Assembly: GCF_039691755.1 (NCBI RefSeq)
Contig: NZ_CP137552.1
Location: forward strand, 1,612,001-1,676,000
DNA from: Halomonas sp. Bachu 37
GTDB lineage: Bacteria > Pseudomonadota > Gammaproteobacteria > Pseudomonadales > Halomonadaceae
Direction of reading: 5' to 3'
DNA length: 64,000 nucleotides
The notes beneath the pieces are model-generated. The model ran no database searches, had not been told where the DNA came from, and worked only from the letters and a program-made list of their open reading frames with translations. Positions within the stretch are counted from its first letter, which is position 1. Every line of letters begins with the position of its first letter. Positions 38,772 through 51,202 of the stretch are shown one piece after another. A program made the translations under genes and the position numbers.

Positions 38772-40604
38772 ATGAACGAGACCCAGCCACCGCCTCCCGA
38801 TACGGCAACCAGTACGGTTTCGCGCACCGCAACGTTCGATGCCTCGGCCCGCCCCTTGCTGCAACATCTCTATGGCCGGCGCAGCGAGGAAGTCTTGCGG
38901 CGGTTGCATCGACACATCGATCACTTTCTGGCGGTTACCGGGCGCGATAGCACCGCCTGCGTTCCCATTGCACCACTATGGAGCGAAAAGGACCAGTGGC
39001 TGATCAGTTATGGTGACAGCGTTCTGGACGAGGACAGGCCGCCCCTGGAAGTATTGCAGGACTTCCTCCAGCGCCAGCTGGGGAATCGTTTCAGCGGTGT
39101 ACACGTGCTGCCGTTCTTTCCCTGGAGCAGCGATGACGGTTTTTCGGTCATTCATTATCGCGAGGTCAACCCTGCACTGGGCGACTGGAGCCATATACGC
39201 CGCCTGGCGCAGGACTACGATGTCATGGTGGATCTGGTGCTCAATCATGTCTCTCGGGAATCGCTATGGTTCGTCGACTATCTCAGCGGCAGCCTGCCGG
39301 GACGCGACTATTTCATCGAAATCGACCCCGATACCGACGTCTCCCAAGTCGTGCGACCGCGCAGTAGCTCGCTGATGGCGCCGGTCTCGACCCGGCGTGG
39401 CACTCGCCACCTGTGGGCGACCTTTTCGGAAGACCAGATTGACCTCAATTTCGCCAACCCCGACGTGCTGCTCGAGTTCGTCGGCATTCTGCTCTTCTAC
39501 CTGGAGCAGGGCGCCAGCATCATCCGCCTGGACGCCATCGCCTTTCTGTGGAAGCGCCTGGGCACCTCCTGTATCCATCTTCCCGAGACCCATAGCGTGG
39601 TGCGCCTGCTGCGGGCGCTGGTCGACCATGTGGCGCCGGGTACGCTGCTGGTCACCGAGACCAACGTGCCTCACCGGGAAAACATGAGCTATTTCGGGCT
39701 CGACCGGCTCGGCAGCGACGACCTGCACCCAGTCACGGAACATCCCGACGAAGCCCACCTCATCTATCAGTTCACCTTGCCGCCACTGTTGCTGCATACC
39801 TTGACTCGCGGTGAAGCCGCCACGCTTCAGGGTTGGCTGCACAGCTTGCCCACCCTGCCGCCGACCTGTACCTATCTCAACTTCACCGCCAGCCACGACG
39901 GCATCGGCGTTCGTCCGCTGGAAGGTTTGCTACCCGACCACGAGCGCGACGCCCTGCTGGAACTGATGCACCGCTTCGGTGGTTTCGTCAGCATGCGCGC
40001 CAACGCCGACGGCAGCGACACCCCTTACGAGCTGAACATCACCTGGTTCGAGGCAATGAAGGGAACGCGGCGCGGCCCGGACCCCTGGCAAGTGGCGCGG
40101 TTTCTGTGTAGCCAGGCGATCATGCTCAGCCTGCAGGGCATCCCGGCGCTCTACCTGCATACCTTGACCGCCACGCTCAACGATCATGAAGGCGTGGAGC
40201 GCAGCGGCCGCCTGCGCTCGATCAACCGCCGCCGCTGGAACCTGGAGGAGCTTGAAACCCTGCTGGACAGCCCCGCCACTCCCACCCATGAAGTCTTCGC
40301 CACCCTGGGCAAGCTTCTCGAACGGCGCCGCGTGGAGCCCTGCTTCCATCCCGGTGCCGCGCAACGAATCATCGCCACGCCGCCCGAACTGCTGGCCCTG
40401 GAGCGTGGCCCTCTGGAGAGCGGTCGACGTTTGCTGGCGCTGTACAATGTCACCGACCAGCCGGTGCCGTTGAACGAGGGCGGTGAAACCCTGGGCAAGC
40501 TGTTGAACCAGTTCGAATGGCGCTCGCTGGCGCCTGAAGGGTTGAGCCCCGGTATCGAAACCCTGCCTCCCTACGCCGCGATCTGGTGGGTAGCGGAACA
40601 TTGA
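38772..40604 (+). CDS. GH13_18 sugar phosphorylase, possibly glucosylglycerate phosphorylase
   Basis: A 610-aa TIM-barrel enzyme of the sucrose-phosphorylase subfamily. It has the HVLPFFPWSSDDGFSV entry, DLVLNHVS, the nucleophile Asp254 in IIRLDAIAFLWK, the acid/base Glu296 in LLVTETN, and His-Asp in FTASHDGIG (375-376). Members phosphorolyse sucrose, sucrose 6'-phosphate, glucosylglycerol or glucosylglycerate. gpgS and gpgP lie 9 kb away, and E. coli YcjM-type glucosylglycerate phosphorylases belong here, so glucosylglycerate is my favoured substrate. AGGAAGG precedes the ATG. Divergent from nrdR. Confidence 0.88.
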   Translation: MNETQPPPPDTATSTVSRTATFDASARPLLQHLYGRRSEEVLRRLHRHIDHFLAVTGRDSTACVPIAPLWSEKDQWLISYGDSVLDEDRPPLEVLQDFLQRQLGNRFSGVHVLPFFPWSSDDGFSVIHYREVNPALGDWSHIRRLAQDYDVMVDLVLNHVSRESLWFVDYLSGSLPGRDYFIEIDPDTDVSQVVRPRSSSLMAPVSTRRGTRHLWATFSEDQIDLNFANPDVLLEFVGILLFYLEQGASIIRLDAIAFLWKRLGTSCIHLPETHSVVRLLRALVDHVAPGTLLVTETNVPHRENMSYFGLDRLGSDDLHPVTEHPDEAHLIYQFTLPPLLLHTLTRGEAATLQGWLHSLPTLPPTCTYLNFTASHDGIGVRPLEGLLPDHERDALLELMHRFGGFVSMRANADGSDTPYELNITWFEAMKGTRRGPDPWQVARFLCSQAIMLSLQGIPALYLHTLTATLNDHEGVERSGRLRSINRRRWNLEELETLLDSPATPTHEVFATLGKLLERRRVEPCFHPGAAQRIIATPPELLALERGPLESGRRLLALYNVTDQPVPLNEGGETLGKLLNQFEWRSLAPEGLSPGIETLPPYAAIWWVAEH

Positions 40605-40674
40605 GCCGGGCACATTAATGCGCCGCTAACCTGGCTATGCCAAGCTGGGCGATGTTTCCATGATGAGGTTCAGC

Positions 40675-41478
40675 ATGCCGATACGTATTTCCCGCCCCGC
40701 ACCGGGGCGCCGCTTTTATCTTGTCGGACTGGCTCTGGCGGGCGTCGTGACGAGCCATTCACTGTGGGCCGAAGAGGCGCTTCCGCCCCCGGTTCAGGCC
40801 ATCGCCAATCAGGGAGTGGAAATCCATGGCAGTTTCGCCGCACCCAGCGGGATGCGCGGTTTCGGTGCCAGCATCCAGGGCCGAGAAATGGCGATCTACC
40901 TGACCCCGGATGGCGAGCACGCCATTGTCGGCACCTTGATGGATAGCGAGGGCACCGACCTGACCGAACCGCAACTGGACCAGCACGTTCGCGCCCCGCT
41001 CGAGACCCAGACCTGGCAGGCCCTGGAGGAGAGCCACTGGATTCAGGACGGCGAGCCCGACGCGCCCCGCGTCATCTATACCTTTACCGATGCCAACTGC
41101 CCCTATTGCCAGCAGTTCTGGGATCAGAGCCGCCCTTGGGTCGAAGCAGGTGAAGTGCAGCTGCGCCATATCATGGTAGGGATTCTTCAGGCGGATAGCC
41201 CCGGCAAGGCCGCTGCCCTGCTGGGAGCCGACGATCCGTCTAGCGCCCTATACGCGCACAGCGAAGACGGCGAGAAGATCCAGGCCAGCGCACAGCCCCG
41301 CGAGATCGAGGAGCAGGCCTACACCAACAACCAGCTGTTCGAGGAACTCGGCCTCTACGCCACGCCGACCAGCGCCTTCCAGCGCGAAGACGAGAGCGGC
41401 ACCATACGCATCGACCGGGTACAGGGCGTGCCCGACCAGGAGCGCCTGGAAGAGATGATGGGCGGCGCTCTCAAGTAG
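40675..41478 (+). CDS. dsbG: Periplasmic thiol:disulfide interchange protein, DsbG/DsbC-like
   Basis: A 267-aa exported thioredoxin-fold protein. A signal peptide ends near LWAEEA (about residue 33). An N-terminal dimerisation region follows, then the thioredoxin domain with the redox motif CPYC (FTDANCPYCQQFWD) and the cis-proline region YATPTSAF. DsbG and DsbC act as disulfide isomerases or sulfenic-acid reductases kept reduced by DsbD. Three ATGs are in frame (40660, 40663, 40675); the last has GAGG at proper spacing. It follows the phosphorylase by 70 bp. Confidence 0.88.
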   Translation: MPIRISRPAPGRRFYLVGLALAGVVTSHSLWAEEALPPPVQAIANQGVEIHGSFAAPSGMRGFGASIQGREMAIYLTPDGEHAIVGTLMDSEGTDLTEPQLDQHVRAPLETQTWQALEESHWIQDGEPDAPRVIYTFTDANCPYCQQFWDQSRPWVEAGEVQLRHIMVGILQADSPGKAAALLGADDPSSALYAHSEDGEKIQASAQPREIEEQAYTNNQLFEELGLYATPTSAFQREDESGTIRIDRVQGVPDQERLEEMMGGALK

Positions 41479-41499
41479 TCACGTAAGGCCCGGCACCAT

Positions 41500-41560
41500 T
41501 ACCCGCTTCAGGGTGGAGGCCGGCCACCCTCCATCGCGCCCTCAAGCGCCGCTCACCAAC
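41500..41560. repeat. Degenerate copy of the dispersed repeat
   Basis: GGTGGAGGCCGGCCACCCTCC followed by GCGCCCTCAAGCGCC resembles parts of the repeats at 24.7, 54.5 and 55.25 kb. It also forms a GGGTGG/CCACCC hairpin that could end dsbG and tsdA transcripts. Confidence 0.5.
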
Positions 41561-41577
41561 GTCCAGCTGCCAAGAAC

Positions 41578-42624
41578 CTACTCGCTCAGCTCTTCAAAAC
41601 GCGACACGCCGACATTCCACGGCTTGAGGAAATCCTTTTCGCCGGTATTGGCGTGATCGGCAAGGCGATGATTGTCGTGCTCTCGCACCTCGCCATAGCG
41701 TGAATGGCGATGGAACGTGGGGCCGAACAATTCCAGCGTCTCGTCCACGTCTCCGGTATAACGCGGGTCCTGCGGGCGTTCCTGACTCACCATGTAGTAG
41801 GCGATATCCCAGGCCTGCTGGTCGGATAGCGAGTTGGGCTGCCCCAGCGGCATGTTGTTCTGGATGAACCCGGCTGCGGTATGGGTGCGTGCGATCCCCG
41901 CCCCCCAGTTATTGGAGCCGTCTCCCCACAATGCCGGGAATACATAGTCGCCATCTTCGTAGTGACCGGAACCATCTTCCCCGTGGCAGATCGCGCAGTT
42001 CTCCCGATAGGCCGCTTCACCCCGGGTGTAGTCGGGTTCGAGTTCCGGTTCGGGCGGCGCGGGGAAGCCACGTCCATAGATCGGCTGACCGGGGTACATC
42101 GGTACGCCGGTAGCCAGCCACTGATGGTAGGCGGAGAGCGCCAGCATGTCGTCGCTGCCATACTCCGGCGGCGTACCGTTCATGGAGTAGGCGAAGCAGC
42201 CGGCGATACGTTCTTCGAGGTTGTTGACGTGCTGGTTCTTGCCACGAAAGTCCGGCAGGGTCACCGCCGCCGGCCAGATCGGCGCACTGAAGGGCTGGCG
42301 ACCTTCGCCCAGGTGACAACTGGAGCAGTTCATGTCGTTGAAGACGTTTTTGCCGCGCAATTGCTGGGTATTGGTGAACAGGTCGTAACCGCGGCGGATC
42401 ACGCGCTTCAGTTGCGGATGGATATCCGCTTCTTCCAGGTCATCCATGGTCGGCGGAACGTGTACCAGCTCGCCTTCCTGGGGCGCGGGATAACCCAGTT
42501 CCACCAGCCCTTGATAAGGCATCTCTTGCGTTTCGCTGGTGGTCTCGGCGGCATAAGCGGCAACACCCAGGCCGGTGGCAAGGGAGGCGCCCAAGAGCGT
42601 CAGTGCAGTATGGTAGCGTTTCAT
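41578..42624 (-). CDS. tsdA: Thiosulfate dehydrogenase (tetrathionate-forming)
   Basis: Periplasmic dihaem cytochrome that joins two thiosulfates to tetrathionate (reversible in some species). The 348-aa protein has a signal peptide ending near AYAAET, haem site 1 CSSCH (100-104), haem site 2 CAICH (210-214), and Cys143 in IAGCFAYSMNG, matching the cysteine that ligates haem 1 in TsdA. The ATG at 42624 is used, as the longer frame (42663) adds residues before the signal peptide. It lies 10 bp after the cytochrome c4 gene, which would take its electrons. Confidence 0.9.
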   Translation of the reverse strand: MKRYHTALTLLGASLATGLGVAAYAAETTSETQEMPYQGLVELGYPAPQEGELVHVPPTMDDLEEADIHPQLKRVIRRGYDLFTNTQQLRGKNVFNDMNCSSCHLGEGRQPFSAPIWPAAVTLPDFRGKNQHVNNLEERIAGCFAYSMNGTPPEYGSDDMLALSAYHQWLATGVPMYPGQPIYGRGFPAPPEPELEPDYTRGEAAYRENCAICHGEDGSGHYEDGDYVFPALWGDGSNNWGAGIARTHTAAGFIQNNMPLGQPNSLSDQQAWDIAYYMVSQERPQDPRYTGDVDETLELFGPTFHRHSRYGEVREHDNHRLADHANTGEKDFLKPWNVGVSRFEELSE

Positions 42625-42634
42625 GGGGTCACCC

Positions 42635-43291
42635 TCACTTCTCGGCCGGGGTCTGGTTGGCAAGCCAGGCGGAAACCGCCTGGATATCCTCGTCGCTCAT
42701 GCGCGTGGCGATCGCGCCCATCAGGTTCTGTGGGTCGTTGTCGCGCTCGCCCTCTTTCCAGGCATTGAGCTGCGCGGCGATGTAACCGGCATGCTGTCCG
42801 GCGATACCGGGGAAGGTTTCGCCCACCCCAGTGCTACCGGGACCGTGGCAGCTCTTGCACGAGACGATATAGTCATCCCAGTCACCACGCTCGGCCAATT
42901 GCTCGCCACGTGCCAGAAGCGCGTCGTCGGCCTGCTCTCCGCCATGCCCGGCCGTGGGAGGCATGGCGCTGTAGTACGCGGCCACATCGTCAATCTGCTG
43001 GTCGTCGATCATGTTGGCGAACGGCTGCATGGTGGCGTTACGACGCTCGCCTGACTTGAAGTCGTGCAACTGCTTGGCTAGATAGACGGCATCCAGTCCC
43101 GCCAGGCGCGGCCACGATTCACCTTGAGGGTTGTTCATTCCGCTACCGTCGGCCTGATGGCACGCGGTACAGACGGCTGCCACCGCCTCACCCCGTTCGG
43201 CATCGCCCGGCTGGGCGGCCGATGCCGCCCCATGGACGAGCCCGGTGGCCAGAAGCAGGCCCAGGCCCACGGCGTTTCTGTTATTGTGCAT
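42635..43291 (-). CDS. tsdB: Dihaem cytochrome c4-type protein, TsdB-like
   Basis: A 218-aa periplasmic protein with a signal peptide (cut near AASAAQ) and two cytochrome c domains: haem motifs CTACH (41-45) and CKSCH (145-149), each followed by a Met-containing segment (MQPFANM, MGAIATRM). Cytochromes of this kind next to tsdA (TsdB) accept electrons from thiosulfate oxidation and pass them to oxidases. GGGAG precedes the ATG. Symbol given on context; a general c4 role is possible. Confidence 0.85.
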   Translation of the reverse strand: MHNNRNAVGLGLLLATGLVHGAASAAQPGDAERGEAVAAVCTACHQADGSGMNNPQGESWPRLAGLDAVYLAKQLHDFKSGERRNATMQPFANMIDDQQIDDVAAYYSAMPPTAGHGGEQADDALLARGEQLAERGDWDDYIVSCKSCHGPGSTGVGETFPGIAGQHAGYIAAQLNAWKEGERDNDPQNLMGAIATRMSDEDIQAVSAWLANQTPAEK

Positions 43292-43323
43292 CGCGCTCTC
43301 CCTTCACTCGTCAATTTCATTCG

Positions 43324-44694
43324 TTATAGGTTATTGCCGGGTCGCCCCGGTAGTGCTGCATCATCGTCTGTGCCGGGCGGAACAATGACCGCCGGCAAGA
43401 GCAACCGTGCCTGGAGCCCGCCTCCCGCGGGGCTGGAGAATTTCACAGTGGCGCCGAAGCGCTCGGCTATCGCCGCGACGATCGCCAGGCCGAGCCCGCT
43501 ACCCTGTTGCTTGCCCGAGCGCCAGAAGCGCTGTGTCAATTGCACCAGCGTGGCATCGTCCAGCTTCGGCCCCTGGTTTTGCACACGAAACTCGATGGCC
43601 TTGTTTTCCACCCAGCGCGCGTCGAGCGTTACCGGGCCGCCTGGAGCACCATGGCGCAAGGCATTGTCTAGCAGGTTACGCAGCGCCGTGACCGCCAGCG
43701 CCTGGGGCATGGCGAGCGTGGCCTGGGGCCACGCGGCAGGAAGCTGGATGCGCGCAGGATCGCGGCACTCAGCATCGGCGATGGCCAGTTCGGCTACTTC
43801 CTCGACGCCGCACGACGTACCGTCATCGAACTCCACCCGCCCCTCCACCCTCGCCAGGGTGAGCAGTTGCTCCAACGTCCGGGTCAGGCGTTCGACCCCC
43901 TCCTCGGCGTGAGCCAGCGCCTCGCGTGCCGGCTCCTCCCCCACCCGACGCGCGACTTGCAGATGGGTCTTGATCGCGGTCAAGGGTGTGCGCAGCTCAT
44001 GCGCGGCGTTATTAGTGAAGCGCTGCTCGCGCACGATCGCCTGCTGCACCCGAACGAGCAGCGCATTGAGCGTCTCGATCAAGGGGCGAATCTCTTGGGG
44101 TACGCCGTAGGTCGACACCGGGGCCAAGGCATCCGGATGGTGCCGGGCAAGCGACTCACGCAGCCGGGTCAGCGGCGCCAGGCCTCGCACCACGCCCAGC
44201 CACAACGCGGCCAGACTGCCAATCAACGCTACCACGAAGGGTACGACCGCCACCTTGATCACCTCCGCCAGCAGCATGTCGCGCTCATCCATGCGGTCCG
44301 CCGTGGTGATCGTCAAGCCACCCCGTTCGTAGGTGAACACCCGCCAGGTCATGTCGCCCTCGCGGCGATAGGCGTGGCCGCGCTCGCCCGGTGTCAGGAT
44401 GTTCTCCATATCAGTATGAGTACGCGCCATGATCTCGCCACGCGGTGAATGCACCTGGCACGCCAGCCCCTCGATGGGCGGAATCGATAGCGCCCGCTGG
44501 TCGGCGCTCTCCCACACCTCCGGCGGTAGCTGTAGCATCAGCCCCGCCACCATGCGGGCCGACTGCGCCAACCGCTGGTCCAGGGTCTCGACGAACTTCT
44601 CCTCCAGGTCGCGCATCAGCCAGGCAGCGGCCAGCCCCCACAGCAGGGCCAGGGTGATCCCGAGAGTCAGCAATAACCGCGTCCGCAAGCTCAT
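43324..44694 (-). CDS. Sensor histidine kinase, QseC/TctE-like
   Basis: A 456-aa inner-membrane kinase: TM1 (about 8-26), a periplasmic sensor region (about 28-143), TM2 (145-168), a HAMP-like linker, the H-box with His232 in NNAAHELRTPLTAIK, the N-box NLLDNALRHG, and the G-box GSGLGLAIVAAIAERFG. The ATG overlaps the response-regulator stop as ATGA. Placement inside the sulfur gene block suggests it controls those genes, but its ligand is unknown. Confidence 0.92.
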   Translation of the reverse strand: MSLRTRLLLTLGITLALLWGLAAAWLMRDLEEKFVETLDQRLAQSARMVAGLMLQLPPEVWESADQRALSIPPIEGLACQVHSPRGEIMARTHTDMENILTPGERGHAYRREGDMTWRVFTYERGGLTITTADRMDERDMLLAEVIKVAVVPFVVALIGSLAALWLGVVRGLAPLTRLRESLARHHPDALAPVSTYGVPQEIRPLIETLNALLVRVQQAIVREQRFTNNAAHELRTPLTAIKTHLQVARRVGEEPAREALAHAEEGVERLTRTLEQLLTLARVEGRVEFDDGTSCGVEEVAELAIADAECRDPARIQLPAAWPQATLAMPQALAVTALRNLLDNALRHGAPGGPVTLDARWVENKAIEFRVQNQGPKLDDATLVQLTQRFWRSGKQQGSGLGLAIVAAIAERFGATVKFSSPAGGGLQARLLLPAVIVPPGTDDDAALPGRPGNNL

Positions 44695-45389
44695 TGGCGC
44701 CCTCGCGGCGCGCCCGGCAACTGAACCGCTTCGGGCTGGCCCAACCGATAGCCCAGCCCACGCACGGTCTCGATCACGCCACTGCCCAGCTTGCGCCGCA
44801 GATGGTGGAGATGGACGTTCAAGGCATTGCTTTCGACCTCGTCGTTCATGCCGTACAGGCTGTCCTTGAGCTGGTCGCTGGTCAGCACGCTGCGGGGTGC
44901 CTGGAGAAAGGTTTCCAGCAGCACCAGCTCACGTCGCGACAGGGTCACCGGGCGACCACCCACCGTCACCTCCCGGCTGGCCGGGTCCAGGCGCAAGGCG
45001 CCATGCTCGATCACCGCTCGCGAACGACCGGCGGCACGCCGCAGCAGGGCATGCAGGCGCGCCACCAGTTCATCGAGATCGAACGGCTTGACCAGATAGT
45101 CGTCCGCCCCGCCGCGCAAGCCATCCACCCGGTCGTGTACCGCATCGCGGGCCGTCAGGATCAGTACCGGGGTGGCAATTCCCGCATCACGCCACTCCTC
45201 CAGCAGATCCAGCCCATCACCGTCTGGCAGTCCACGATCGAGTATCACCACGTCGCTGGCCACGCCCAGAATGGCCTGGCGGGCGGCGGCCTGAGTGGTA
45301 ACGTGATCCACGACGAAATCGTAGGTCTTCAGCCCGGCGCGAATCCCCGCTGCCACCAAGGCGTCGTCTTCGATCAGCAGTACATGCAT
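44691..45389 (-). CDS. OmpR-family response regulator
   Basis: A 232-aa transcription factor. The receiver domain has Asp8/Asp9, the phosphoacceptor Asp51 in VVILDRGLPDGDG and DYLVKPFD. The C-terminal winged helix (about 125-225) has TLSRRELVLLETFLQ and VESNALNVHLHHLRRKLG. The ATG at 45389 with AGGA upstream is chosen over a start 30 bp earlier. Operon with the kinase gene. Closest by feel to QseB/TctD regulators. Confidence 0.93.
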   Translation of the reverse strand: MHVLLIEDDALVAAGIRAGLKTYDFVVDHVTTQAAARQAILGVASDVVILDRGLPDGDGLDLLEEWRDAGIATPVLILTARDAVHDRVDGLRGGADDYLVKPFDLDELVARLHALLRRAAGRSRAVIEHGALRLDPASREVTVGGRPVTLSRRELVLLETFLQAPRSVLTSDQLKDSLYGMNDEVESNALNVHLHHLRRKLGSGVIETVRGLGYRLGQPEAVQLPGAPRGRQ

Positions 45390-45508
45390 GAAAGTGTCCT
45401 TGTTGATGGGTGAGAGCATGCCAAGGCAGCATTAACACAGCGTTAACCCGAGGGAGAGCAAGACGACCCGAGCCACGGCAAATGGTCGAACAGTGGCGCA
45501 ACGAGAAC

Positions 45509-45535
45509 ACCCTTGACGCCAAGCGCCAAGGGTGA
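45509..45535. other. Hairpin without T-tail upstream of the regulator operon
   Basis: CACCCTTG and CAAGGGTG pair across an 11-nt loop in the gap (45390-45594) between the YeeE gene and the response regulator. No T-run follows on either strand, so it may be a transcript-end stem or a binding site. Confidence 0.4.
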
Positions 45536-45594
45536 AAAACGGTAGTGAAATGCGAGAGCGGAAAGGCGCCGTCACACAGCTCCAGCGTCAGGCG

Positions 45595-46017
45595 CTACCC
45601 CGCGTAACGCCGGGCGACGAACCACCCCGCCACCATGGCAATCAGCATGGCCGCCAAGGGCGGTGTCATCCCTCCCACGGACGCGATGGCCGGGCCGGGA
45701 CAGTAGCCGGAAAGCCCCCACCCGATGCCGAACAGTGCCGCGCCTCCCAGCAACTTGGCGTCAAGGTCGCGGCGCGTGGGTAGCTGGAATGCTTCGTCAA
45801 ACAGCGGACGCGTTCGCCTGAATACAAGACGATAACCAATGAAGGTGGTGACCACCGCACCGCCCAGCACGAACATCAAGGTAGGGTCCCAGGCGCCGGC
45901 GATATCCAGAAACCCCACCACCCGTGCAGGATCGGTCATGCCGGCAAGCGCCAGGCCCAGGCCGAACAGCAACCCGGCGATATAGCCCATGACGGTTCGC
46001 ATTGCAGCGGCATTCAT
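45595..46017 (-). CDS. YeeE/YedE (DUF395) transporter, second half-size subunit
   Basis: A 140-aa membrane protein with four predicted helices, half the size of E. coli YeeE. It carries the family cysteine motif GYCPGPAIAS near residue 112. YeeE-type proteins pass thiosulfate or sulfane sulfur through the membrane via cysteines. Paired half-size forms (PmpA/PmpB) occur in other bacteria. The ATG at 46017 overlaps the stop of the partner gene as ATGA; the long frame reading further upstream is a shadow of the partner. Confidence 0.85.
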   Translation of the reverse strand: MNAAAMRTVMGYIAGLLFGLGLALAGMTDPARVVGFLDIAGAWDPTLMFVLGGAVVTTFIGYRLVFRRTRPLFDEAFQLPTRRDLDAKLLGGAALFGIGWGLSGYCPGPAIASVGGMTPPLAAMLIAMVAGWFVARRYAG

Positions 46018-46475
46018 ACTCCTATCTCCCATATGTGGCGCACAACGAAGACCGTGACAATTGCGCTCACCAGGAACACGCCGGTGGCCGCCATCGAGCG
46101 TTTCGACAGCCGCGCCAGGCCACAAACGCCATGGCCGCTGGTGCAGCCGCTTCCCAGCCCGGTGCCCAGGCCCACCAGCAAGCCCGCCACCAGCATCAGC
46201 GAGACACCCCCGAGCGGTTCGCCCACGACCGCTCCCGGTCGCCCCTCGACATTGCCCAAGCCGCCACCGAATGCCATCAGCAACAGCGGCCCGCTGATCA
46301 GGCCCAGCACGAAGGTGGCGCGCCAGGCGCTGTCCCCTGGGGGCCGACGGGTCACCAGGTTTCCCACGATGCCGCTGATACCGGCAATTCGCCCCATGGT
46401 TGCCATCAGCCAGACGGCGGACAGGCCGATGAAGATTCCGCCCACCAAGCCTTGCAGACTCGCACTCCAATCCAC
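46014..46475 (-). CDS. YeeE/YedE (DUF395) transporter, first half-size subunit
   Basis: A 153-aa membrane protein with four helices and the motif GSGCTSGHGVCGLARLS (about 109-125), whose cysteines are typical of the YeeE/YedE family. With its 4-bp-overlapping partner it would make a complete pseudo-symmetric channel for sulfane-sulfur compounds. The start is GTG at 46475 with GGGAG upstream. It sits between the DUF2892 gene and the second half. Confidence 0.87.
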   Translation of the reverse strand: MDWSASLQGLVGGIFIGLSAVWLMATMGRIAGISGIVGNLVTRRPPGDSAWRATFVLGLISGPLLLMAFGGGLGNVEGRPGAVVGEPLGGVSLMLVAGLLVGLGTGLGSGCTSGHGVCGLARLSKRSMAATGVFLVSAIVTVFVVRHIWEIGV

Positions 46476-46516
46476 GTAATGTTCTCCCGTTACCTGTTAA
46501 CTGCCGGCTCGCCCAC

Positions 46517-46711
46517 TTACGAATGACGGCGCTTGCAGGTATCGACCCCCAGCAGCGAGTAGAGCGGACAGGTGCCCAGCAGCCCCGTCGCCAGCGGCAC
46601 GATACCAATCCAGCCCCATATCCCGATGGTGCCGGTCAGTGCCAGCACGATAAGCGCCAGGCCGATCACGATACGGGCGATCTTGTCGATACTGCCTACA
46701 TTGTGTTTCAT
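46517..46711 (-). CDS. DUF2892 small inner-membrane protein
   Basis: A 64-aa protein with two hydrophobic stretches (IARIVIGLALIVLALTG and IWGWIGIVPLATGLLG) and a Cys in TCPLY and another in DTCKRR. DUF2892 modules occur alone or fused to rhodaneses (YgaP), which links the family to sulfur transfer. AAGGAG precedes the ATG. It lies 20 bp after the persulfide dioxygenase-like gene. Confidence 0.88.
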   Translation of the reverse strand: MKHNVGSIDKIARIVIGLALIVLALTGTIGIWGWIGIVPLATGLLGTCPLYSLLGVDTCKRRHS

Positions 46712-46731
46712 GGTTTTCTCCTTCGAGCGCT

Positions 46732-47598
46732 TCAGAAAAGATTGAGGGGGACCTTGAGATAGACCTGGCCGTTCTCTTCGGCCGGTGGCATATGCCCGGC
46801 TCGCATGTTGACCTGAACCGAGGGCAGGATCAGCTTCGGCATGCCCAGGGTGGCGTCGCGCTCGGTACGCATGCTGACGAACTCGTCCTCGCTCACGCCC
46901 TCCCGCACATGCACGTTATGGGATCGCTGTTCGCCCACCGTGGTCTCGTTCTGATACGTATCGCGCCCCGGTGCCTTGTAGTCATGGCAAAGGAACAGCC
47001 GCGTGGCATCGGGCAGGGCAAGAACTTTCTGAATCGAGCGAAACAGGGTGCGGGCATCGCCCCCGGGAAAGTCGCAGCGGGCGGTGCCGTAGTCGGGCAT
47101 GAACAGCGTATCGCCGACGAACGCGGCGTCGCCGATGACATAGGTCAGGCACGCCGGCGTGTGCCCCGGGGTATGCAGGACATAACCTTCAAGTCCACCG
47201 ATGGTGAAGGTATCGCCTTCCTCGAAAAGCCGATCGAACTGGCTGCCGTCCCGAGCGAATTCGCTCCCCGCGTTGAATGCCTTGCCGAAGATATCCTGCA
47301 CCTCCAGGATGCGAGCGCCTATCCCCGTCCTGCCGCCCAGGGCCTCGTGCAGGTAAGGTGCAGCGGAGAGGTGATCCGCATGCACGTGGGTCTCCAGTAT
47401 CCACTCCACCTCGAGCTCACGATCCTGAATGAACCGAATGATATCGTTGGCGGAACGTACGTCGGTACGCCCGGCGGCATAGTCGAAGTCCAGCACCGAA
47501 TCGAGAATCGCACACGCCCGGCCGGCGGGGTCCTGCACCACGTAGCTGAACGTATTGGTCGGTTCATCGAAGAAAGGGGTGACCAGCGGCGTTGCCAT
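46732..47598 (-). CDS. MBL-fold persulfide dioxygenase-like hydrolase (Blh type)
   Basis: A 288-aa metallo-beta-lactamase-fold protein with no signal peptide. Metal ligands are visible in THVHADHLSA, HTPGHTPACLTY and GDTLFMPDYGTARCDFPGG, with the late His in LCHDYKAPGRD. This pattern and the extended C-terminus match ETHE1/Blh enzymes that oxidise glutathione persulfide to sulfite. With the transporter pair and sulfurtransferases around it, a role in oxidising imported sulfane sulfur is likely. GGAGG precedes the ATG. Confidence 0.88.
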   Translation of the reverse strand: MATPLVTPFFDEPTNTFSYVVQDPAGRACAILDSVLDFDYAAGRTDVRSANDIIRFIQDRELEVEWILETHVHADHLSAAPYLHEALGGRTGIGARILEVQDIFGKAFNAGSEFARDGSQFDRLFEEGDTFTIGGLEGYVLHTPGHTPACLTYVIGDAAFVGDTLFMPDYGTARCDFPGGDARTLFRSIQKVLALPDATRLFLCHDYKAPGRDTYQNETTVGEQRSHNVHVREGVSEDEFVSMRTERDATLGMPKLILPSVQVNMRAGHMPPAEENGQVYLKVPLNLF

Positions 47599-47628
47599 AT
47601 AGCCTCCATTCGACAGAATGTGGGGTTA

Positions 47629-48105
47629 TCAGAAGGTATAGACCGGAATCTTCGGGTCGCGCATCATTTCCGCCATGGGCCCCGGCATGGCGACGCCGAC
47701 ACCTTCCCGCAGGTCGTCCTGTTCATATTCGGAGTTGGGCAGGTAAATGGCGCAGACATCCACCTTCGCGCCATCATTCATCATGGTTGCCAACAGCCCC
47801 TCGGGCTTGATGTCGCGAGGGGCGACCGTCCGTTCGCTGGCATAGCCCTCCACCGCCAGATCCCCCGCGCCATCACACAACAAGAGGTGCAGGTCGCTCC
47901 CCTGCTCCTGCATTGCACGGGAAAGAATCATCGCCATGCTCTGGGTTTCAAGGGAGTCACTGGTGACGATAACCAGGGCACGCTCTCGCGATGCCTCGCT
48001 GCCGTCATCGGCAAAAGCCACGGGTGCAATGCTCAAGGCTGCCGTGCACAGCACTCCCGCAAACACGGAATTGAAGCGGCAGGTATTATTGAATGGTAAG
48101 GACAT
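47629..48105 (-). CDS. Exported DsrE-family protein
   Basis: A 158-aa protein with a signal peptide (hydrophobic FAGVLCTAALSIAPVAFA, cut near residue 32) and a DsrE/TusD-like domain. Cysteines in LHLLLCDGAGD and KVDVCAIYLPNSE are candidates for persulfide carriage; the latter matches the usual DsrE cysteine position. Periplasmic DsrE proteins are less common than the cytosolic TusBCD. GGAG precedes the ATG. It lies 31 bp before the dioxygenase gene. Confidence 0.8.
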   Translation of the reverse strand: MSLPFNNTCRFNSVFAGVLCTAALSIAPVAFADDGSEASRERALVIVTSDSLETQSMAMILSRAMQEQGSDLHLLLCDGAGDLAVEGYASERTVAPRDIKPEGLLATMMNDGAKVDVCAIYLPNSEYEQDDLREGVGVAMPGPMAEMMRDPKIPVYTF

Positions 48106-48206
48106 GTGATCTCCAGTGGGCTAGAAAGCCTTCAGAAACAAGTTATCGGGAACCAGGGGTGTCGGAAGACATCCTCAACCAACCGAGGCTGAGTGAAGCT
48201 CGGATA

Positions 48207-48818
48207 TCAGGGTCGATCATTCCCTTGCCAGGCAACGTCTGGATCGATTTCATAGCTCCAGGGCAAGCCGGAGTTACGCCAGCCGTTCCTTGCCCTCACC
48301 CCGGCGGAATTTCCCTCTTCGAGCTTGCCCCCCTCGAATCCGTCGCTGACGGAATACACCTGGGTATACCCCATGTCCGCGATCACGTCCGCCGCCGGGG
48401 CACTGCGTGTGGCACCGGAGCGGCACATGACGATCAAGGGAGTCGCGTCGCTCGCGCCATGCATGTCGAGCTGCGCCTCGATCTGACGGGCAAAGTCTTC
48501 ATTAGCCGCCATCGCCCAGGTTCGCGCCTGTTCATCGAACTTGTCGCGGTCGGCAAGCATCCACGGCACATGGATATCGGTAGGTTCGGCAAAGCCTGTG
48601 AACTTGATCTCGATGGGATCGCGTACATCGATCAACAGGGCATCGTCCTGTTCTTGCAATAGGTCATAGGCTTCGCTGGCCGTCAGGTAAAGACCCAACT
48701 GGGTCTCGCGGTAAGCGGCGGTTTCGTCAGCCATGCCCGGCGAAGCCAACGCCGCCCACGCCATGCCCCCCAGCAAAAGAGGGGATAACGCACGGCGTGA
48801 AAAAAGGAGGTTTTTCAT
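48207..48818 (-). CDS. Periplasmic rhodanese-domain sulfurtransferase
   Basis: A 203-aa protein with a signal peptide (ending near GMADET) and a single rhodanese domain: ALLIDVRDPIEIKFTG and the active-site loop CRSGATRS with the persulfide-forming Cys. The C-terminus SGLPWSYEIDPDVAWQ is typical of the periplasmic PQQ-linked or sulfur-operon rhodaneses. The ATG at 48818 has GAGG at correct spacing; the ATG at 48824 is too close. First gene of the minus-strand sulfur block. Confidence 0.87.
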   Translation of the reverse strand: MKNLLFSRRALSPLLLGGMAWAALASPGMADETAAYRETQLGLYLTASEAYDLLQEQDDALLIDVRDPIEIKFTGFAEPTDIHVPWMLADRDKFDEQARTWAMAANEDFARQIEAQLDMHGASDATPLIVMCRSGATRSAPAADVIADMGYTQVYSVSDGFEGGKLEEGNSAGVRARNGWRNSGLPWSYEIDPDVAWQGNDRP

Positions 48819-48981
48819 AACCATTTCCTCTAAGCAAATAACCTATTTGATTTCTAGAGAGTAGTCCTTTTTACGTTCCGTTACCTGAGACAAGTTGTCG
48901 CAATACCAAGGTCGATCCCGAGCTACGGCTGGCTTCCCATGCCATATTTGATGACGGTACTGACTCTTACTTATCCCTATA

Positions 48982-49027
48982 AAAAAACTGACCACGCCAC
49001 CCATGACTATTGGGTGACGTGGCCGGT
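48982..49027 (-). terminator. Terminator of gpgP-gpgS
   Basis: A long stem, CCACG/CGTGG plus CACCCA/TGGGTG around a short loop, ends in seven T on the minus strand, about 50 bp after the gpgS stop. Confidence 0.92.
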
Positions 49028-49076
49028 TTATACGTTAGTTCAAGTAGTTGTTTTTCTAAACCTTTATAGCAGAGGG

Positions 49077-50297
49077 CTACACCTCTCCCCGGTTATCGAG
49101 TTCGACGGCCTCGTGCATGCGCGTGAGAATATCGGGAACGGCCGCCTGAACGCGGTCCCAGCTGGGAATGAAGGGCCGCTCGCGTGGGTTGTCGAGAAAC
49201 AGGTTGCCCGCTTCCAGCAGGTTGCCGGCGAACAGCTCCACCGCCTGCTCCTCACTGTGGCGATCGAGGCTCAGGCCGTTCATGGTGGCGTCGTGGTCGT
49301 AGGCTTCGATCAAGTCCAGCGCCAGGCGGTAGTAGGTCGCTTTCAGGGTGCGGAAATCCTCGCTGCTGAAGCTCACCCCCTGGGTGGCAAGCTTGCGATA
49401 GAGCGCCTTGGAAATATCCAGACTCATGCGGTTCAGGCCGCTGCCGGGGTCATCCTGGCTCACCGGTTGATGCTTGTGATCGTAGGTATCGGCGATATCC
49501 ACCTGGCATATCTGCCGGTGGGAATAGTTGCGCTGCAGCTCGGAAAGCACACCGATCTCCAGCCCCCAATCCGCCGGGATGCGAATCCCCTCCAGAACAT
49601 CGCTGCGCATGGCGAACTCGCCGGAAAGCGGATAGCGGAAGCTGTCGAGATAGTCCAGGTACGGCAGCGGCCCGCAGACGATTTTCAGCGCCCGCAGCAG
49701 CGGCGTGACCAGCAGGCGCGCCACCCTGCCGTTGAACTTGCCCTCGGCAATTCGCGGGTAGTAGCCCTTGCAGAAGCGGTAACTGAAGCGCGGATGGGCG
49801 ATCGGGTACAACAGGCGCGCCAGCATGCCCCGCTCGTAGGTCAGGATATCGCAGTCGTGCAGGCCCACCACCGACGTGCGCCCGGACGCCAGCACGTAGC
49901 CGGAGCAGTACCAGACGTTGCGTCCCTTGCCCGGTTCCAGCGCCCCCAGGCCGTGGCTATCCAGCTCTTCATCGAGCTCGCGCAGGCGCGGGCCGTCGTT
50001 CCACAGGATACGGGTATGCTGCGGCAAGCGGGAAAAGAACTCCCGTGCATGGAGAAACTGCTCCCGGTCGGCCCGGTCCAGGCCCACCACGATCTCGCTC
50101 AGGTAGGGCACCTTGGTCAGCTCATCGATGATCCCGGAAAGCGCCGGGCCTTCCAGTTCGGAAAACAGCGAAGGCAGAATCAAGCCCATGGGCCGTCGCC
50201 GGGAGAACTTGACCAGGTCCGCCTCGAGCGCTTCCACCGGACGCCGCGTCAAGTTATGAAAATCGGTAATGACACCGTTCTGATGAAAATCGCTCAT
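49077..50297 (-). CDS. gpgS: Glucosyl-3-phosphoglycerate synthase (GT81)
   Basis: Transfers glucose from a nucleotide sugar to 3-phosphoglycerate, the first step of glucosylglycerate synthesis. The 406-aa GT-A protein has LILPSLFSELEG, the metal-binding GLHDCDILTY (Asp148-x-Asp150), PLSGEFAMRSDVLEGIRIPADWGLEIGVL as separate conserved stretches, and DIADTYDHKHQP. The ATG overlaps the gpgP stop as ATGA. Glucosylglycerate is a compatible solute made under salt stress with nitrogen limitation in several halophiles. Confidence 0.9.
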   Translation of the reverse strand: MSDFHQNGVITDFHNLTRRPVEALEADLVKFSRRRPMGLILPSLFSELEGPALSGIIDELTKVPYLSEIVVGLDRADREQFLHAREFFSRLPQHTRILWNDGPRLRELDEELDSHGLGALEPGKGRNVWYCSGYVLASGRTSVVGLHDCDILTYERGMLARLLYPIAHPRFSYRFCKGYYPRIAEGKFNGRVARLLVTPLLRALKIVCGPLPYLDYLDSFRYPLSGEFAMRSDVLEGIRIPADWGLEIGVLSELQRNYSHRQICQVDIADTYDHKHQPVSQDDPGSGLNRMSLDISKALYRKLATQGVSFSSEDFRTLKATYYRLALDLIEAYDHDATMNGLSLDRHSEEQAVELFAGNLLEAGNLFLDNPRERPFIPSWDRVQAAVPDILTRMHEAVELDNRGEV

Positions 50298-51202
50298 GCC
50301 GTCTCCCTCGTTTCCGCCGTAAGCCGGCGGTCACTTTGCCCCCACCAGTAGGCCACTCCTTCAGCCCACCCTAACGGCCCGCGCTGGCGTGTGCGATACA
50401 GCCCCTGAGCGCTGGGCTCCACGTCCAACTGGTGGCAGCCCCGGATCACTACCGCCTGGTCGACCGCCTCCAGCATGGGAATATCGTTGGGACCGTCGCC
50501 GAGCCCGATGGAAAGCGGGTGCTTGCCGCGCAAGGCGCTGAAACGACCGATCAGCCACTCCGTGGCATTGCCCTTGTCGGTGGCGACACCGATGACGTGC
50601 CAGAACCGTCCACCTCGGGTCAGGCGCAGGCCGTCTCCTTCCAGGCTGTGCCGAAAACGTGCCAAAGCCTCGTCGCTGTCCTGCCAGATCAGCGGCTCGC
50701 TGCCTTCACGCAAGCAGGCCAGCCGCGCTCCCTCGTCGTCGAGCCCCGTCAATTCCTTGACCTCGTCCAGCGAAAGCTCATCCATGCGGGTAAACGCCAC
50801 GCCGAGGCGTTGGCGCCAGACATCGAGTCGGGCATGAATGAAACCGATATCCACCCCGGTATGCTTGATGACCATACCGTCGCGTCCCGACCCGGGGCGG
50901 TCCAGGCGAGCATGACACCACGACGGTGGCAGCCCGATCACCGCACCGTTTTCAGCGATGAAGGGAGTCGCGGTGAGACCCAGCGCCTCGCGTAGCGGCA
51001 GCATTTCCGCGCGGGTCTTGCTGGTCACCGGGATCACCGGCACCCCCCACTCCTTGAGCCTCGCCAGCCATGGCTTGGCCGGCGAGAAGTCATAGCTATC
51101 GTGATCGAGCAAGGAACCGTCCAGGTCGGTCAGTACCAACCGAGGGCGAAGCGCCAGATCAGCCGGAGGAGCCGGCGCGGTGTGTGAAGTTCTTTTGTGC
51201 AT
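50294..51202 (-). CDS. gpgP: Glucosyl/mannosyl-3-phosphoglycerate phosphatase
   Basis: A 302-aa HAD phosphatase of the MPGP (YedP-like) family: motif I LVLTDLDGSLLDHD (Asp26, Asp28), motif II PVTSKTRAE, motif III near TDKGNATEWL and motif IV IGLGDGPNDIPMLEAVD. It would remove phosphate from glucosyl-3-phosphoglycerate produced by GpgS to release glucosylglycerate. Its coupling to gpgS supports glucosyl rather than mannosyl substrates. Upstream lie the 20-bp direct repeats. Confidence 0.88.
   Translation of the reverse strand: MHKRTSHTAPAPPADLALRPRLVLTDLDGSLLDHDSYDFSPAKPWLARLKEWGVPVIPVTSKTRAEMLPLREALGLTATPFIAENGAVIGLPPSWCHARLDRPGSGRDGMVIKHTGVDIGFIHARLDVWRQRLGVAFTRMDELSLDEVKELTGLDDEGARLACLREGSEPLIWQDSDEALARFRHSLEGDGLRLTRGGRFWHVIGVATDKGNATEWLIGRFSALRGKHPLSIGLGDGPNDIPMLEAVDQAVVIRGCHQLDVEPSAQGLYRTRQRGPLGWAEGVAYWWGQSDRRLTAETRETA

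Follow-up and report, generated by a model that had tools for sequence, protein, structure and literature searches.

Halomonas is reported to be widespread in the sea and able to oxidize thiosulfate (PMC9237845), and pdo, sqr, and tsdA are reported as widespread in the genus (PMC8014003). The closest described counterpart of the locus treated here is the tsdBA locus of Halomonas titanicae SOB56, in which a QseB-like regulator and a kinase lie upstream of tsdBA and DsbG lies downstream; in this strain, tetrathionate is reported to accumulate from thiosulfate, and with thiosulfate tsdA is upregulated 4.3-fold and tsdB 21.5-fold (PMC9237845). Here, we analyze a ten-gene island at positions 41578 to 48824 (minus strand) of a 64,000-nucleotide stretch of the Halomonas sp. 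Bachu 37 genome (3.49 Mb), referred to as the window. The island shares this arrangement and adds genes for a persulfide dioxygenase, two YeeE halves, and a rhodanese-DsrE pair; the accessible part of the H. titanicae report mentions none of these, nor the kinase cysteine or the upstream box described below (PMC9237845). With slightly better than even confidence, we read the island as a composite of Halomonadaceae modules that deal with thiosulfate and sulfane sulfur both outside and inside the inner membrane, with a sulfur relay and sensing through the kinase residue Cys79.

Individual parts of the island recall systems described elsewhere. The BigR/Blh operon contains a Blh-type dioxygenase (PMC5823870); the dioxygenase here lacks the N-terminal sulfurtransferase half, and the block encodes a two-component system instead of a BigR-type repressor. 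The half-size YeeE proteins PmpA and PmpB of Serratia have been proposed to form a heterodimer (PMC11582611). The yrkD-nreBC-sqr-pdo island of Bacillus licheniformis likewise has a two-component system of its own beside clustered genes for DsrE, TusA, rhodanese, and dioxygenase; there, however, NreB is reported as a sulfide sensor, a CstR-like repressor is present, and the carriers are presumed to be cytosolic (PMC9918477), whereas those of the Halomonas island are predicted to be secreted. RsrS-RsrR of Acidithiobacillus caldus is a two-component system in an operon with thiosulfate/tetrathionate enzymes, but the enzymes are others and tetH-doxDA is reported to be controlled via an inverted repeat (PMC5093147). 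In the archaeal DsrE3A-TusA system of Metallosphaera cuprina, DsrE and tetrathionate yield a Cys-S-thiosulfonate (PMC4175335); its partner is TusA, whereas the predicted secreted DsrE of Halomonas lies next to a rhodanese in an island without TusA. Finally, the YTD cluster of cable bacteria combines YeeE with a DsrE-like protein, and periplasmic rhodaneses are expressed, but it includes a TusA-like YeeD and a DsrEFH-like complex, and the accessible part of the report does not give YeeE as two halves (PMC13047784).

A preliminary description of this stretch had held that no described pathway unites this set under a QseBC-like system. That was too strong, since a 2022 report describes QseB and a kinase beside tsdBA, with induction by thiosulfate (PMC9237845), and a sulfur island that includes a two-component system is known from Bacillus (PMC9918477). 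A response of tsdBA to a sulfur compound, the lack of which would have spoken against the description, is reported for H. titanicae (PMC9237845). Our full-text searches of the open-licence literature turned up no account of the complete set or of the kinase cysteine, nor of any pairing between a secreted DsrE and a secreted rhodanese. Three features appear to be new: a DsrE that lacks any Pfam match yet has a modeled DsrE/YchN fold and two invariant cysteines; a kinase below the QseC cutoff with a clade-wide Cys79 in a presumed periplasmic sensor; and a conserved box before the regulator and before ttrB. Our analysis confirms the observation behind the preliminary description and supports its interpretation in part.

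Gene content and layout of the island

Gene finding and profile matches in the window place ten co-directional genes in the block, where eight to nine had been proposed. Every gene named in the preliminary description is present on the minus strand where it had been placed, and the gene content matches the successive sulfane sulfur steps and the split YeeE pair that it outlined. In order of transcription, the genes encode the rhodanese, the DsrE-fold protein, the persulfide dioxygenase, a YgaP-type piece, a YeeE half, a DUF6691 half, the response regulator, the histidine kinase, TsdB, and TsdA.

The secreted rhodanese (48207 to 48824) carries a rhodanese domain with its active-site cysteine (Pfam Rhodanese, 32.5 bits against a cutoff of 22.2). 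This residue, Cys134 in an MCRSGATRS loop, is the only cysteine of the protein and is kept in 52 of 52 loci. The neighboring DsrE-fold protein (47629 to 48105) matches no Pfam family even at an E value of 10, PF02635 included, and a PF02635 search of its own genome returns three other DsrE proteins without it; searching the PDB by sequence with its profile gave no convincing match. A structural model nevertheless predicts the DsrE/YchN superfamily fold, and both Cys77 and Cys118 are kept in 88 of 88 loci. A second sulfane sulfur locus, recognized by eye near position 3375914 of the same genome, combines an ArsR-like protein, which ends in a rhodanese-like domain, with a classical DsrE (PF02635) and another rhodanese-like frame.

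The preliminary description had assigned signal peptides to both proteins, and Sec-type leaders are indeed readable in the window sequences. By a home-made rule, 42 of the 51 rhodanese homologues and 74 of the 80 DsrE proteins also have such a leader, and the rule passes almost none of the negative controls (0/53 dioxygenases, 1/26 regulators, 0/8 MPGS, and 0/13 NrdR). Among proteins expected outside, it recovers 19 of 22 TsdB but just 16 of 29 DsbG. An earlier signal-peptide rule was dropped: it accepted 40 of the 53 dioxygenases and 20 of the 27 regulators used as controls.

The gene at 46732 to 47598 is assigned as a persulfide dioxygenase on its sequence. It has no leader, matches solved persulfide dioxygenases over its full length (9g8t, 440 bits; 4ysk, 382.4 bits) and human ETHE1 (4chl, 75.1 bits), and carries the HxHxDH metal motif as HVHADH at residue 71. 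The preliminary description had called it Blh type; this holds for the dioxygenase half, which matches positions 141 to 423 of the 423-position Blh profile (396.8 bits against a cutoff of 625). We rejected the assignment as a bifunctional Blh sulfurtransferase/dioxygenase, as the score is below the cutoff and the N-terminal sulfurtransferase half (TIGR01244/DUF442) is not matched. Some relatives add a second dioxygenase (in L061, L068, L076, and others, about 53% identical to that of the window) and a separate DUF442 sulfurtransferase, both lacking in the window's copy; this stand-alone sulfurtransferase family occurs in 12 of 80 loci, reminiscent of a Blh divided between two genes.

Three putative membrane proteins follow. 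The YgaP-like transmembrane piece (DUF2892/PF11127, YgaP-like_TM; 46517 to 46711; 64 residues; 85.1 bits) keeps Cys48 in 58 of 58 distinct sequences. For the YeeE/YedE halves, we used PmpAB half criteria of about 130 amino acids, four transmembrane helices, and one conserved cysteine each. The first half (46014 to 46475) has 153 amino acids, four transmembrane-like stretches by simple hydropathy, a Sulf_transp match below the cutoff (15.4 bits against 27), and a probable PmpA/PmpB-like character; of 61 distinct sequences, the 60 that extend over Cys111 and Cys118 have both residues. The second (45595 to 46017) has 140 amino acids, three such stretches, a match to PF20398 (DUF6691; 139.8 bits), and Cys106 in 62 of 62 distinct sequences. 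Neither half gave a convincing match in PDB sequence searches. Half-size YeeE proteins also occur in BigR operons. In many relatives, a SulP permease gene lies between the dioxygenase and YeeE half genes; it is absent from the window's copy.

The gene at 41578 to 42663 (likely ATG start near 42624) is identified by alignment as TsdA, the diheme thiosulfate dehydrogenase/tetrathionate reductase. It aligns with 5lo9 and 4wq7-type TsdA and has CXXCH motifs at 113 and 223 and the heme 1 ligand Cys156; at heme 2, it has Asn-Met instead of Lys-Met, as reported for all Halomonas TsdA proteins studied, that of H. titanicae SOB56 among them (PMC9237845). The adjoining TsdB (42635 to 43291), a predicted c4-type diheme electron acceptor with CXXCH motifs at 41 and 145, can be aligned both to cytochrome c4 and to the TsdB half of 5lo9. 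Some TsdA frames in other genomes (G146, G069, G122, and G051) and one TtrA frame (G125) contain internal stops or are split, a hint of gene loss.

From its layout, the block probably forms two transcription units. The first runs from the rhodanese to the second YeeE half (48824 to 45595), with gaps of 101, 30, 20, and 41 bases and then a 4-base overlap; the second holds the regulator, kinase, TsdB, and TsdA (45419 to 41578), spaced by a 4-base overlap, 32 bases, and then adjoining or overlapping ends. We separate them because at least 175 bases lie between the YeeE half and the regulator (45419 to 45595), a gap that contains a TTAA-N7-TTAA box and, 3' of the first unit, a terminator-like hairpin found by pattern match (12 pairs; 45534 to 45508, minus strand). 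Because of this gap we rejected the whole island as one operon and regard it as improbable, although hairpins as such are no more frequent than in shuffled sequence (5 in 40600 to 49200 against 5.5 expected). The gene order itself is more than chance, because it recurs in other genomes. A second hairpin (49024 to 48990) lies between the rhodanese and the gene upstream; the genes there (49077 to 51202, minus strand), which we take to serve mannosylglycerate synthesis, lie ahead of the sulfur genes in several relatives too. On the other side, DsbG (40660 to 41478, plus strand; NCBIfam, 294.5 bits against a cutoff of 124) is a convergent neighbor of the island.

Modular conservation in the Halomonadaceae

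Homologues of the genes come from records with the names Halomonas, Vreelandella, and Billgrantia, in line with a place in the Halomonadaceae. We searched one set of 151 Halomonadaceae genomes with all seven queries. The YeeE half was found in 97 genomes (E value of 1e-10), the regulator in 50 (1e-80), the window-type DsrE in 25, the rhodanese in 23 (1e-10), TtrA in 20 (1e-100; none above the curated cutoff), and an octaheme tetrathionate reductase in 10; TsdA matched in 47 at an E value of 0.001, of which 35 were kept after rows with E values above about 1e-40 and extra partial rows were excluded. A scattered distribution would have spoken against the preliminary description, and the genes are not scattered: in genomes with both partners, the regulator and YeeE half lie within 3 kb of each other in 34 of 43, TsdA and the regulator in 20 of 23, and DsrE and the rhodanese in 14 of 18. 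DsrE and the octaheme reductase are likewise close together in 4 of the 5 genomes that have both. Within 10 kb, DsrE accompanies TsdA in 4 of 13 genomes and TtrA in 2 of 13. Hypergeometric values for co-location were set aside, as they ignore kinship among the genomes.

We then compared 80 named DsrE loci, the best 80 of 339 encoding a relative, which lean to close relatives and comprise 65 Halomonadaceae loci and 15 from other or unclassified taxa. Within the Halomonadaceae, the rhodanese gene is directly upstream of DsrE in 41 loci and the YgaP piece directly downstream in 45; dioxygenase, YeeE half, regulator, and kinase follow in 21, and in 10 the rhodanese lies upstream while TsdB and TsdA, along with the dioxygenase, YeeE half, regulator, and kinase, are all encoded downstream. 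The island is therefore conserved, but in modules: the two-component system together with the YeeE halves, tsdBA behind it, and a movable rhodanese-DsrE pair, often with the YgaP piece.

The pair also occurs in other company. In four loci (L075, L082, L090, and L102), it adjoins TtrBCA, with no YeeE half found in the locus and a second-type dioxygenase near in three; representative Ttr proteins score 1304.7 (TtrA, L075), 399.7 (TtrB, L075), and 179.9 bits (TtrC, L102) against NCBIfam, each below the equivalog cutoff. The 15 remaining loci belong to Marinobacter, Denitrificimonas, Marinobacterium, Neptunomonas, and further or unclassified taxa; 9 of them encode an octaheme tetrathionate reductase (622.9 bits against a cutoff of 375 for the representative in L065) and 10 a rhodanese, which is directly upstream of DsrE in none of the 15. 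Across the class, DsrE was found in 9 of 369 genomes, including that of Bachu 37. The association of rhodanese-DsrE with thiosulfate and tetrathionate chemistry is thus recurrent and not universal.

The two-component system and its upstream box

The second unit opens with an OmpR-family response regulator (44691 to 45419; likely start at 45389) and a histidine kinase (43324 to 44694). The preliminary description had called the pair QseBC-like. QseB and QseC are indeed the best NCBIfam models, but both proteins fall below the curated equivalog cutoffs (regulator, 233.6 bits against 345; kinase, 203.6 against 475), and we rejected an assignment as QseBC.

The predicted sensor of the kinase contains a single cysteine, Cys79, in a stretch presumed to be periplasmic from its place between two hydrophobic segments. 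Cys79 is invariant in 35 distinct kinases from island-type loci, including members at 45 to 48% identity, and is the sole sensor column with a cysteine in more than 3 of them. With three further members and 20 TsdA-less loci, chosen among 27 genomes that have the regulator but no kept TsdA match, it is present in 58 of 58 clade loci. Paralogues differ: when 30 of 40 QseC-model matches from 8 genomes were fetched and aligned, all 8 clade kinases had Cys79 and none of the 22 paralogues did.

In the 20 TsdA-less loci, the gene immediately before the regulator encodes YedE in 14 and a dioxygenase in 3 more. DsbG is a frequent convergent neighbor of tsdA or of the kinase, even without tsdBA and YeeE halves (L183), and lies beside the kinase in 15 of these 20. 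In one genome (L182; G130:C27), the same two-component system directly follows TtrBCA; in the two loci inspected for it (L226 and L232), no two-component genes lie upstream of ttrB.

The TTAA-N7-TTAA direct-repeat box (45432 to 45446, minus strand) lies 57 bases 5' of the likely regulator start, and 32 of 39 distinct loci have a box 55 to 59 bases ahead of the regulator. Direct repeats of this kind are typical of PmrA/QseB-type regulators. A looser pattern, applied to 260 bases upstream, finds a box before 27 of 38 regulators, 4 of 44 rhodaneses, 7 of 84 DsrE genes, and 3 of 55 dioxygenases and before none of 32 TsdB, 29 TsdA, 50 YeeE half, and 34 kinase genes. The preliminary description had placed the island under its own two-component system; this fits the regulator's own unit, which includes tsdBA, but control of the whole island is unsupported and was rejected because the box is rare or absent before the other genes scanned.

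Of the 20 genomes with TtrA, 10 also have a box 126 to 178 bases ahead of ttrB, against a background of about 0.03 per 460-base stretch with both strands counted (a box at -345 in G042 is left out). This box occurs in 8 of 13 genomes with the regulator versus 2 of 7 without, which is no convincing covariation, and we therefore rejected a single regulon for tsdBA and ttrBCA.

A proposed sulfur relay and its alternatives

Under the composite reading, TsdA would oxidize thiosulfate to tetrathionate outside and pass the electrons to TsdB. The secreted rhodanese would load sulfane sulfur on Cys134, either from thiosulfate or from sulfur released in thiosulfate/tetrathionate turnover, and hand it to the secreted DsrE, which would hold it on Cys118 and/or Cys77. 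At the membrane, the PmpAB-like half-transporters and the YgaP-type piece would move sulfane sulfur inward, where the dioxygenase would convert it to sulfite. The genome also encodes an SQR-like protein (38% identity), and therefore sulfide may be a second sulfur source. The kinase would read periplasmic reactive sulfur via its one periplasmic cysteine, and the regulator would activate its own operon, hence tsdBA, via the TTAA-N7-TTAA box. In this scheme, we infer the carrier function and its direction, the hand-over to the transporter, sensing by Cys79, and binding of the regulator to the box.

Several observations weigh against this reading. Comparison of the window's DsrE profile with classical DsrE was not significant (probability 0.5%). 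Of the 97 genomes with a YeeE half, 75 lack a window-type DsrE, and the transporter can therefore occur without it. By the set thresholds, 17 of the 80 DsrE loci, some of them short, lack TsdA, TtrA, octaheme reductase, dioxygenase, SQR, and YeeE half (one, L135, has an SQR-family frame by clustering), and the 8 loci outside the family but within the class include 6 with no convincing sulfur neighbor among the queries. In the 20 TsdA-less regulator loci, no box is found within 150 bases upstream of the regulator. A paralogous PmrA/QseB-type system in these genomes has a similar box nearby that it may use, so either system may act at the ttrB box.

One alternative is that the genes are independent neighbors: the dioxygenase and PmpAB-like proteins would form a detoxification operon and tsdBA a thiosulfate respiration operon, and rhodanese-DsrE, with DsbG, would repair or clear persulfides or S-thiosulfonates on periplasmic proteins without feeding a transporter. 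The two-unit layout, the many genomes in which rhodanese-DsrE lies away from the YeeE half, the four TtrBCA loci, and the frequency of DsbG all agree with this. In the relay of the preliminary description, the step from DsrE to the transporter is unproved because the cluster is modular. Against independence, the DsrE and YeeE half genes are at most 10 kb apart in 13 of the 22 genomes with both, in unchanged order, and we consider this alternative rather unlikely.

Somewhat less probable is an ordinary QseBC/PmrAB-type sensor that responds to a metal, to the envelope, or to a quorum signal and controls the operon for reasons unconnected with sulfur sensing. The best-scoring models, the resemblance of the box to that near the paralogous system and its direct-repeat form are as expected for such a sensor, and quorum sensing has been suggested for H. 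titanicae (PMC9237845). The scores below the curated cutoffs, the presence of Cys79 in the clade and in none of the 22 paralogues, the position behind a YeeE half or dioxygenase gene in 17 of 20 TsdA-less loci, and the thiosulfate response of H. titanicae tsdBA (PMC9237845) argue otherwise. It is very unlikely that TsdA runs here as a tetrathionate reductase in an island for tetrathionate respiration or clearance: the Asn-Met pair at heme 2, the influence of heme 2 surroundings on reaction direction in Campylobacter TsdA (PMC5146829), and the links of DsrE to TtrBCA and octaheme reductase would fit, but H. titanicae, with the same Asn-Met pair, accumulates tetrathionate from thiosulfate (PMC9237845), and the partner TsdB is present.

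Returning to the composite reading, we tentatively suggest a broader form of it, in which the kinase and regulator would belong to an undescribed two-component family that senses external sulfane sulfur or thiosulfonate via Cys79 and is tied to a PmpAB-like importer, and rhodanese-DsrE would be a periplasmic carrier shared by TsdBA and the TtrBCA/octaheme enzymes. If true, a secreted DsrE acting together with a secreted rhodanese would bring DsrE-type sulfur relay into the periplasm. The sensing of external sulfur by regulators has been called poorly understood (PMC11582611), and the Cys79 kinase clade, encoded next to a likely sulfur importer, offers a directly testable candidate for such sensing.

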